Assembly (NCBI RefSeq): GCF_900188435.1
Contig: NZ_FYFA01000002.1
Span: 558,001 to 622,000, forward strand
Length of the DNA stretch: 64,000 nucleotides
Direction of reading: 5' to 3'
Origin: Marinobacter sp. es.048
GTDB lineage: Bacteria > Pseudomonadota > Gammaproteobacteria > Pseudomonadales > Oleiphilaceae
The position numbers and the translations under genes are program-made. The notes below the pieces were generated by a model. The model was not told where the DNA came from, did not search any database, and worked only from the letters and a program-made list of their open reading frames with translations. Below, piece after piece: positions 2,738 to 58,122 of the stretch. Position 1 is the first letter of the stretch. Every line of letters begins with the position of its first letter.

Positions 2738-2813
2738 TCCCCGATAGCTCAGTTGGTAGAGCAACGGACTGTTAATCCGTTTGTCGCTGGTTCGAGCCCA
2801 GCTCGGGGAGCCA
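2738..2813 (+). tRNA. tRNA-Asn (anticodon GTT)
   Basis: A 76-base cloverleaf with encoded CCA. The acceptor stem TCCCCGA pairs with TCGGGGA, the D-arm contains AGCTCAGTTGGTAGAGC, the anticodon loop CTGTTAA carries GTT at 2771-2773, and the T-arm contains GGTTCGAGCC. The sequence is identical to the copy at 17395-17470. Confidence 0.97.
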
Positions 2814-5485: not shown

Positions 5486-5576
5486 GTAGGTCGGATTAGC
5501 GAAGCGTAATCCGACAATCTGCTGATACTTAATGCCGCTGAATTTTGTCGGATTACGCTTCGCTAATCCGACCTAC
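5486..5576 (+). repeat. REP-like palindromic repeat pair (inverted), locus A
   Basis: Two 31-base units face each other at 5486-5516 and 5546-5576. Each is itself palindromic (TCGGATTA...TAATCCGA), and the pair forms a perfect 31-bp inverted repeat around a 29-base loop. The central triplet is GAA in the left unit and TTC in the right. The repeat lies immediately after the barrel gene stop and before the end of rlmKL, so it may also act as a bidirectional transcript end. Related copies are at 17796-17889 and 57882-57914. Confidence 0.85.
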
Positions 5577-17394: not shown

Positions 17395-17470
17395 TCCCCG
17401 ATAGCTCAGTTGGTAGAGCAACGGACTGTTAATCCGTTTGTCGCTGGTTCGAGCCCAGCTCGGGGAGCCA
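17395..17470 (+). tRNA. tRNA-Asn (anticodon GTT), second copy
   Basis: Seventy-six bases, identical to the copy at 2738-2813, including encoded CCA. The acceptor stem TCCCCGA/TCGGGGA and a GTT anticodon in loop CTGTTAA are present. The flanking sequences are unrelated apart from the promoter elements, so the gene was duplicated with or converged on the same promoter design. Confidence 0.97.
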
Positions 17471-17516: not shown

Positions 17517-17599
17517 GCCTTCTTTTTTTGCATTACGTTTTTAACCACATCCTAGGTGGTGATGCATGCTCCTGCCCTGGCCTGCTGTCATTCGGGGCT

Positions 17600-17707
17600 G
17601 GTGGTGTGGGGTCGCCCTCCCAAAAACCGCTACGAGCACGTCCATGTGCGCTTGACTGTGGCCATCCATGGCCACAGACATTTTTGGGAGGGCGACCCCA
17701 CACCACC
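17600..17707. repeat. Conserved-core long-hairpin element, copy 1
   Basis: A perfect 27-bp inverted repeat (17600-17626 with 17681-17707) encloses a 54-base core (17627-17680). On the minus strand the core matches the core of copy 2 (57982-58035) at 53 of 54 positions. The core contains two small palindromes, both with CATGGA(T/C)G at the tip, so the whole can fold as a long stem opening into a three-way junction. The arm sequence differs from copy 2, yet each arm is exactly complementary to its partner. No gene is encoded convincingly. Function unknown; a structured RNA, a mobile hairpin or a transcript end are possible. Confidence 0.85.
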
Positions 17708-17795
17708 GAACCAGAATTCAAAGATATACTCACGGGATATTTGCTGAGTTTCCGCAAGGTACCTAAGGATATGCAACTTGGATTTGCATAGACAT

Positions 17796-17889
17796 GTAGG
17801 TCGGATTAGCGCAGCGTAATCCGACAAATCAGTTGAATCCCAGTTTCGCAATATCCCGCGTCGGATTACGCTGCGCTAATCCGACCTAC
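17796..17889 (+). repeat. REP-like palindromic repeat pair (inverted), locus B
   Basis: Two units of the GTAGGTCGGATTA family face each other at 17796-17826 and 17860-17889, about 90 bases from the long-hairpin element. Here the central bases are GCGCAGC in the left unit and the complement GCTGCGC in the right, instead of GCGAAGC/GCTTCGC at locus A. The two units of a locus therefore match each other better than they match the other locus. Confidence 0.85.
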
Positions 17890-57881: not shown

Positions 57882-57914
57882 TGTCGGATTACGGCTTCGC
57901 CTAATCCGACCTAC
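57882..57914 (+). repeat. REP-like palindromic repeat, single unit, locus C
   Basis: One unit of the TCGGATTA...TAATCCGA family, with centre CGGCTTCGCC instead of the CGCTTCGC of locus A. It ends in CCTACA and has no inverted partner. It lies 24 bases after dnaE2 and 39 bases before the second long-hairpin element. Confidence 0.8.
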
Positions 57915-57953
57915 ATGATGCCTGTCTTTGATGAGAGAACTCCATGGATTCGG

Positions 57954-58063
57954 GAGTGGATAGGGGACCTTCTTTCAGGAATGTCTGTGGCCATGGATGG
58001 CCACAGTCAAGCGCACATGGATGTGCTCGTAGCGGTTCCTGAAAGAAGGTCCCCTATCCACTC
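57954..58063. repeat. Conserved-core long-hairpin element, copy 2
   Basis: A perfect 28-bp inverted repeat (57954-57981 with 58036-58063) encloses a 54-base core (57982-58035). The core holds two hairpins: CTGTGGCCAT/ATGGCCACAG (57985-57994, 57997-58006) and GCACAT/ATGTGC (58013-58018, 58021-58026), both tipped by CATGGATG. The core is in the opposite orientation to copy 1 and differs from it at one position. The arms are different in sequence but follow the same consensus (GGGGwCsyyCTyyCArrAA) next to the core. No protein is convincing. Confidence 0.85.
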
Positions 58064-58095
58064 TAACTCCAAAATTTTCAGTCTTATAAAACAAT

Positions 58096-58122
58096 AAAAC
58101 CCCGCTCGAAGGCGGGGTTTTT
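58096..58122 (-). terminator. Intrinsic terminator after oadB
   Basis: AAAACCCCGC (58096-58105), loop TCGAAG, GCGGGGTTTTT (58112-58122). The A/T flanks make it usable from both sides, ending the oadGAB transcript and any readthrough from dnaE2. Confidence 0.9.

Follow-up and report, generated by a model that had tools for sequence, protein, structure and literature searches.

Two places about 40 kb apart in Marinobacter sp. es.048 carry an almost identical 54-nt core, each time inside a long and perfect hairpin, which raises the question of what such an element is and in which form, DNA or RNA, it matters to the cell. Both lie in the window, by which the whole stretch of 64,000 nt that was analysed is meant (contig NZ_FYFA01000002.1, positions 558,001 to 622,000). 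A sequence-only reading had offered three identities for what it took to be a two-copy element: a structured RNA, a hairpin mobile element moved by a Y1-type or integron-like recombinase, and a nucleoid or chromosome-organising site.

Structure of the element

Copy 1 occupies window positions 17600..17707 with its sense strand, which bears GGA in the loops, on the minus strand, and consists of a perfect 27-bp outer stem around the 54-nt core at 17627..17680 (minus); as a covariance-model match it spans window 17599-17708 (G000:C2:575599-575708, minus). Copy 2, at 57954..58063 with its sense on the plus strand, has the same core (57982..58035, plus) within a perfect 28-bp stem whose sequence is unlike that of copy 1. 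On these points the sequence-only reading was accurate: the cores are identical at 53/54 positions once the minus strand of the first is set against the plus strand of the second, the arms of 27 and 28 bp hold no mismatch, both copies are predicted to fold into a three-way junction in which a long stem carries two hairpins, and neither ends in a U-tract. Hairpin B lies at 17656..17677 in copy 1 (minus, loop AUGGAU) and at 57985..58006 in copy 2 (plus, loop AUGGAU at 57993-57998). Hairpin A lies at 17636..17649 (minus, loop AUGGAC) and 58013..58026 (plus, loop AUGGAU at 58017-58022), respectively. The hairpin tips were likewise found as claimed, CATGGATG in both hairpins of copy 2 and CATGGACG in hairpin A of copy 1.

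The GGA-loop strand folds at -86.6 kcal/mol in copy 1 (z -10.7) and at -80.7 kcal/mol in copy 2 (z -11.1), in each case with 0/200 shuffles as good, and the opposite strand of copy 1 reaches -84.7 kcal/mol (z -10.9). Read along the sense strand, the element is composed of the stem (usually 25-28 bp), hairpin B, a short conserved linker of CAAGCG or similar, hairpin A, a conserved stretch like CTCGTAGCG or TTCACAGCG, and the returning arm. In most genomic copies the outer stem is near-perfect and 25-32 bp long, and its sequence varies from copy to copy; in other genera it measures 18-51 bp, with a median of 29. Some copies have an extra short pairing outside the stem, AGTTTGG with CCAAACT.

Several features adjoin the two copies. 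Copy 1 begins 130 nt past the second of two tRNA-Asn(GTT) genes, which are located 15 kb apart at window 2738-2813 and 17395-17470. A terminator-like hairpin of the ordinary type stands ~33 nt beyond copy 2 (window ~58096-58122). A second dispersed palindrome, GTAGGTCGGATTA...TAATCCGACCTAC, adjoins several element copies in the window and elsewhere in the genome; it has 5 matches in the window against 0.04 expected, at window 5486-5576, 17796-17889 and 57902-57914.

A dispersed intergenic repeat

Both copies in the window are real, and as a count they fall far short, as there are about 55 in the genome. A search of its DNA returned 31 rows, including two in which copy 1 is matched arm to arm, and these correspond to 29 places. 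A covariance model built from 25 copies out of that search returned 60 rows, which after removal of 6 antisense rows leave 54 places; one half-copy from the DNA search brings the total to ~55. With genes called from codon usage, 52/55 copies are wholly intergenic and 3/55 overlap the edge of a called gene by 32-71 nt. Throughout this genome the core was found mostly with its flanking inverted repeats and not as a part of a known insertion sequence or protein-coding gene. The gene contexts of the 55 copies are UP+/DOWN- in 17, ++ in 13, -+ in 10 and -- in 15, which rules out a fixed gene orientation such as that of a 5' leader or a 3' end.

The density along the genome is uneven, with 18/55 copies in 0.4 Mb (G000:C1 1.6-2.0 Mb) and few near the inferred ter. 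A link to the replication strand was considered and dropped, there being no strand bias among the copies (20 skew samples). Nothing in this uneven spread and lack of strand bias speaks for a nucleoid or chromosome-organising site. Opposite-facing pairs, with the 5' ends towards each other and gaps of ~50-225 bp, are frequent; one lies between convergent genes at G000:C1:1996371-1996689, and others were found in G009, G022, G023, G036 and G047 and at loci L217 and L210.

Four of the 55 copies are long forms, in which the loop of hairpin A contains an extra structured insert of ~80 nt. The insert is a repeated multi-hairpin sequence (L064:1814-2003, L112:1544-1734, L113, L114, L123, L129), and at the three comparable long-form loci (L064_1814, L113, L114) the loop is plain in G023, G009 or both. 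The insert may itself be an element, nested in this one by targeting the CACATGG tip.

Conserved loops and similarity to TwoAYGGAY

Across 50 genomic copies both hairpins keep C-A-N-G-G-A-N-G and the loops vary almost solely at N: in both hairpins the loop A is present in 49/50 and each GGA base in 49-50/50, and the spacing of the two GGAs is 23-25 nt. At the first N, 22/50 hairpin B loops and 23/50 hairpin A loops have G or A. The motif CANGGANG occurs twice in 42/51 copies, once in 8 and not at all in 1. Outside the genus the loops are nearly as strict, with the first A of hairpin B in 68/74 rows and the other fixed positions in 70-74/74. The copies share ancestry, and their loop conservation is therefore not independent evidence per copy.

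Loops of this type are known from the CsrA/RsmA proteins: in the available part of one source, RsmE contacts ANGGAN in a hexaloop, one CsrA dimer is able to bridge two sites, and the CsrA SELEX consensus is RUACARGGAUGU (PMC7652899). The element copies present their GGA in just such an ANGGAN hexaloop. Hairpin A of copy 2 agrees with the consensus at 10/12 positions; in the whole genome 2/55 copies agree at 12/12 and 46 at 9-11, and a 400-kb sample gave no 12/12 match on either strand. In other genera the full match was found in 18/73 places, the 73 being distinct (L335 = L403) and exclusive of the weak L401, L170, the antisense rows and L342 (= L402). The hairpin B stems of the window copies, with 8-9 bp, are stiffer than most CsrA SELEX ligands, which have four contiguous pairs or fewer according to the same excerpt (PMC7652899). 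This genome has one csrA gene; as csrA is found in 76/77 genomes, whether or not they have many copies of the element, its presence does not discriminate.

The closest named family is TwoAYGGAY (RF01731, clan CL00106), which has two AYGGAY-loop hairpins on one outer stem. The excerpts consulted include gamma-Proteobacteria among its taxa (Weinberg et al. 2010, PMC2864571) and predict that it binds CsrA, its external stem being 'not well conserved' (PMC4333381). The loops of the window copies (AUGGAU/AUGGAU in copy 2, AUGGAU/AUGGAC in copy 1) agree with this definition, and both hairpins stand on a long outer stem. An Rfam scan in gathering mode gave no RF01731 match, whereas in permissive mode copy 2 passes Rfam's gathering cut-off of 43 bits with 43.3 bits (57938..58078, plus) and copy 1 lies just below it at 42.5 bits (17585..17722, minus). 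A search of the genome for RF01731 found 14 places at 23.2-37 bits, 0 above the cut-off, and a search of 20 of its loci found 6 rows at 30.7-39.1 bits; neither lists the window copies, and the unlisted copies count as unscored. Among 19 other-genus loci, L330 passes (45.2 bits) and the other 18 gave no row, and small permissive searches gave no row at E <= 5 for L331, L332, L062, L064 and L066. Since few of the tested copies pass the cut-off, the element is termed TwoAYGGAY-like.

In permissive mode many long hairpins also draw sub-cut-off miRNA matches, so a weak Rfam score is little proof by itself; kinship with RF01731 is better argued from the common plan and the alignment of both loops. 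Sub-cut-off matches to miRNAs, Ysr224 and other Rfam families were set aside as hairpin noise or as ambiguous. In many copies from other genera (L331-L334, L337-L339, L342, L344, L346) the antisense strand scores 22-32 bits with RF02770 (the Yersinia sRNA Ysr224), far short of its cut-off of 70, by chance or as a distant relative.

The element differs from TwoAYGGAY in three respects. The unpaired segments by the junction of the Rfam model are mostly deleted in alignments of the element copies; as far as the excerpts consulted show, these segments belong to the model and are no part of the definition in print. Many copies are tipped AGGGA or AAGGA, which is ANGGAN but not AYGGAY. Finally, there are ~55 dispersed copies in this genome, most of them not reported at the cut-off, and such dispersal is not described in the excerpts on TwoAYGGAY that were available, nor was a description of this dispersed repeat found in the parts of the literature searched. 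If the two are the same family, the present copies suggest why its external stem looks poorly conserved: what is kept is the pairing and not the letters.

The element also resembles CsrB, CsrC, RsmX, RsmY and RsmZ in having GGA motifs in hairpin loops (PMC7652899, in part). CsrB gathers 22 GGA sequences within one RNA according to the same excerpt (PMC7652899), whereas the element has two sites per copy and many copies, with no promoter motif found and, in the window, no terminator of its own. The best score of RF00166 in the genome is 25.1 bits, against a cut-off of 44.

Covariation and strand bias of pairing

In an alignment of 25 copies, 93.5% of the cells are paired, compared to 68.8% in shuffled alignments and at most 45.4% in slid ones, and the covariation score is 0.655 (0.182 shuffled, at most 0.168 slid). 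Both sides have changed in 33/44 pairs. In hairpin B 5/9 stem pairs change on both sides, and in hairpin A 1/5.

The exceptions to Watson-Crick pairing are unequal between strands. On the sense strand of 49/55 copies there are 37 G.U pairs, 4 A.C and 31 others (p = 1e-7), an excess with the same direction in every gene-context class, and the 25 copies found by BLAST and not by the model have 19 G.U and 1 A.C. In other genera the counts are 54 G.U, 11 A.C and 27 others, with one place included twice and with copies whose selection by the model may favour G.U. In 15/55 copies both flanking genes run one way and the element the other, so that a separate promoter would be needed for sense RNA; 11 of these copies have the same G.U bias (7:1). 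No promoter-like motif was found by one EM method in the 80 nt upstream of 53 copies. A strand-blind process is expected to leave G.U and A.C in equal numbers, so one strand is selected. Most likely this is an RNA strand; single-stranded DNA as the selected form would also give strand-specific G.T pairing.

Comparison of orthologous copies leads in the same direction. Summed over the 19 sets in which each arm is at least 60% identical, some of which may pair different copies, 415 stem pairs are unchanged, 75 are altered on both sides and 28 on a single side; were the arms to change independently, ~15 double and ~147 single changes would be expected. The very strong covariation, the G.U pairs on one strand and RF01731 as the closest family support the structured RNA among the identities first proposed.

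Gain, loss and inversion

The locus of copy 2, termed oadB-like, is flanked by genes for an error-prone DNA polymerase and for the beta subunit of a sodium-translocating decarboxylase. Of 30 such loci (own included), 13 have a plain copy that scores strongly with the model, L123 and L129 have the long form, L138 has an odd variant, and at least six have a compact site without the element (L116, L117, L118, L124, L127, L136). Among these empty sites is that of G023, whose decarboxylase is 100% identical. Some empty sites elsewhere hold remnants of the outer arm (L065, L112), and deletion therefore explains some of the absences. Insertion by a process that copies the target as an inverted repeat is not supported, the empty sites being compact or having outer-arm remnants, and copies in the distant genome G155, which share both stems and flanks, also speak against it.

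Orientation changes as well. G023 and G009 have the core at L104 the other way round, and the left flank and outer arm have not moved; the G009 core, with its lower similarity, may be a different copy. At L114 the inversion in both G023 and G009 takes in the entire element and some of the left flank. At the locus of copy 1 the regions of G023 and G009 align better with one of them inverted (133 vs 45). Each region contains two copies that face opposite ways, and it looks as if these had been flipped together between the two genomes.

In G155 the hairpin is part of a MITE-like repeat of ~365 bp, at whose ends stand the inverted repeats CAGG(A/C)TGTTGAAAAA; such terminal repeats are clear in G155 only. 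The repeat (L347-L354, L344) has a further, third GGA hairpin, GGTGCAGGGATGCACC, and on contig L348 its parts are ~785 bp apart.

Distribution

All of the 49 genomes of the genus that were examined carry the element (own included), with 3 to at least 49 rows each, as do 5/28 genomes from other genera of the order. In a sample of the whole class it was detected at E <= 1e-6 in at least 63/369 genomes and at least 56/272 genera (own included), which are lower bounds with the best 10 candidates scored per genome; among the matches listed, 306/369 genomes had none at that threshold. A pattern scan found at least 80 named loci, and among the matches listed 72 belong to Marinobacter and the others to Vreelandella (2), Halospina, Reinekea, Idiomarina and three MAGs. 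A plasmid, phage, virus or E. coli origin was rejected, as the queries used had no match in PLSDB plasmids, INPHARED phages, viral contigs or E. coli.

Candidate explanations

The explanation that we hold to be somewhat probable is that of a dispersed, high-copy, TwoAYGGAY-like RNA that probably docks CsrA, its transcription, its binding to CsrA and the titration of CsrA being what we infer. The GGA-loop strand would fold into the three-way junction, in which a stem of ~27 bp bears a pair of short hairpins; their ANGGAN hexaloops, at a GGA spacing of 23-25 nt, would act as docking sites for a CsrA/RsmA dimer. Each transcribed copy would thereby present a bridging pair of CsrA sites, and the copies may contribute to a CsrA-titrating pool across the genome or may act on their own transcript. 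The stem would be selected for pairing and not for sequence, undergoing compensatory turnover as the loops and the junction stay nearly fixed. What is new here is the high dispersed copy number, the compensatory turnover of the stem, the inversions, and the presence and absence between close relatives.

Rather unlikely, but the best of the other explanations, is a hairpin mobile DNA, in which one strand folds during replication or transposition, a recombinase reads the junction and the GGA tips, and RNA is irrelevant. Dispersed copies that are present or absent at orthologous loci would be natural for it, as would the lack of a preferred gene orientation and of a promoter motif; strand-specific G.T pairing is expected of a folded DNA strand too, and in G155 a ~365-bp repeat with terminal inverted repeats does carry the hairpin. 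The mobile element proposed from the sequence thus stands in its dispersal and its presence and absence between close relatives, but not in its Y1-type recombinase: at E <= 0.001 no PF01797 (Y1) match was found in the window's own genome, G000, with its ~55 copies, whereas G004 has 22 matches and 6 element copies. A Y1 transposase is therefore not the driver of the spread here, and Y1/RAYT-driven spread was discarded for this genome; the comparison concerns the Y1 family only. Further, orthologous copies keep their pairing through two-sided changes, and a match of the loops to a protein-RNA consensus is not predicted for mobile DNA.

REPs are intergenic palindromes that are present in many copies and often as opposite-facing pairs. 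The element is like REPs, BIMEs and REPINs in all of these features, but differs from the REP/RAYT system in that its genome has no Y1 match, its stem sequence is not conserved across copies and its core has two hairpins. With MITEs it shares being small, non-coding, dispersed and palindromic, and in G155 having terminal inverted repeats; in this genus, in contrast to MITEs, neither clear terminal repeats nor target duplications could be established.

We regard as improbable a hairpin at mRNA ends that serves processing, as an RNase III site, a stabiliser or an insulator, and of which only the stem matters. A near-perfect stem of ~27 bp with free sequence would suit it, and so would the short distance to the gene edge, with a median of 38 nt on the 3' side and 72 nt on the 5' side. 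Against it, the loops are among the most conserved parts, and the element has no fixed orientation to genes and is inverted at some loci. Just as poorly placed is a DNA palindrome that is kept perfect by template switching from arm to arm, free of selection on folding, which would account for the inversions and for the clustering of double changes in the 19 orthologous comparisons (including 32 transversion pairs, against 28 single changes), but as a strand-blind process would not yield G.U:A.C ratios of 37:4 and 54:11, 18/28 single changes to or from G.U, or hairpin B stems that covary around a fixed loop.

Implications

The TwoAYGGAY motif has been called relatively unexplored (PMC11661157, in part). 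Its look-alikes constitute an intergenic repeat of ~55 copies in this genome, mostly beyond the reach of the Rfam model. A stem that is always paired and changes freely is a natural experiment on how structure is kept as sequence turns over. If the copies of the TwoAYGGAY-like RNA bind CsrA, such a bacterium would have ~100 dispersed docking sites, and the modelling of Csr/Rsm regulation would change. A bolder and quite improbable extension is a mobile, genome-wide CsrA sponge with a flipping core, which would put either the GGA loops or their silent complement into the transcript that crosses it; if true, it would be a phase-variable layer of Csr control, set by copy number, across many gammaproteobacterial genomes.
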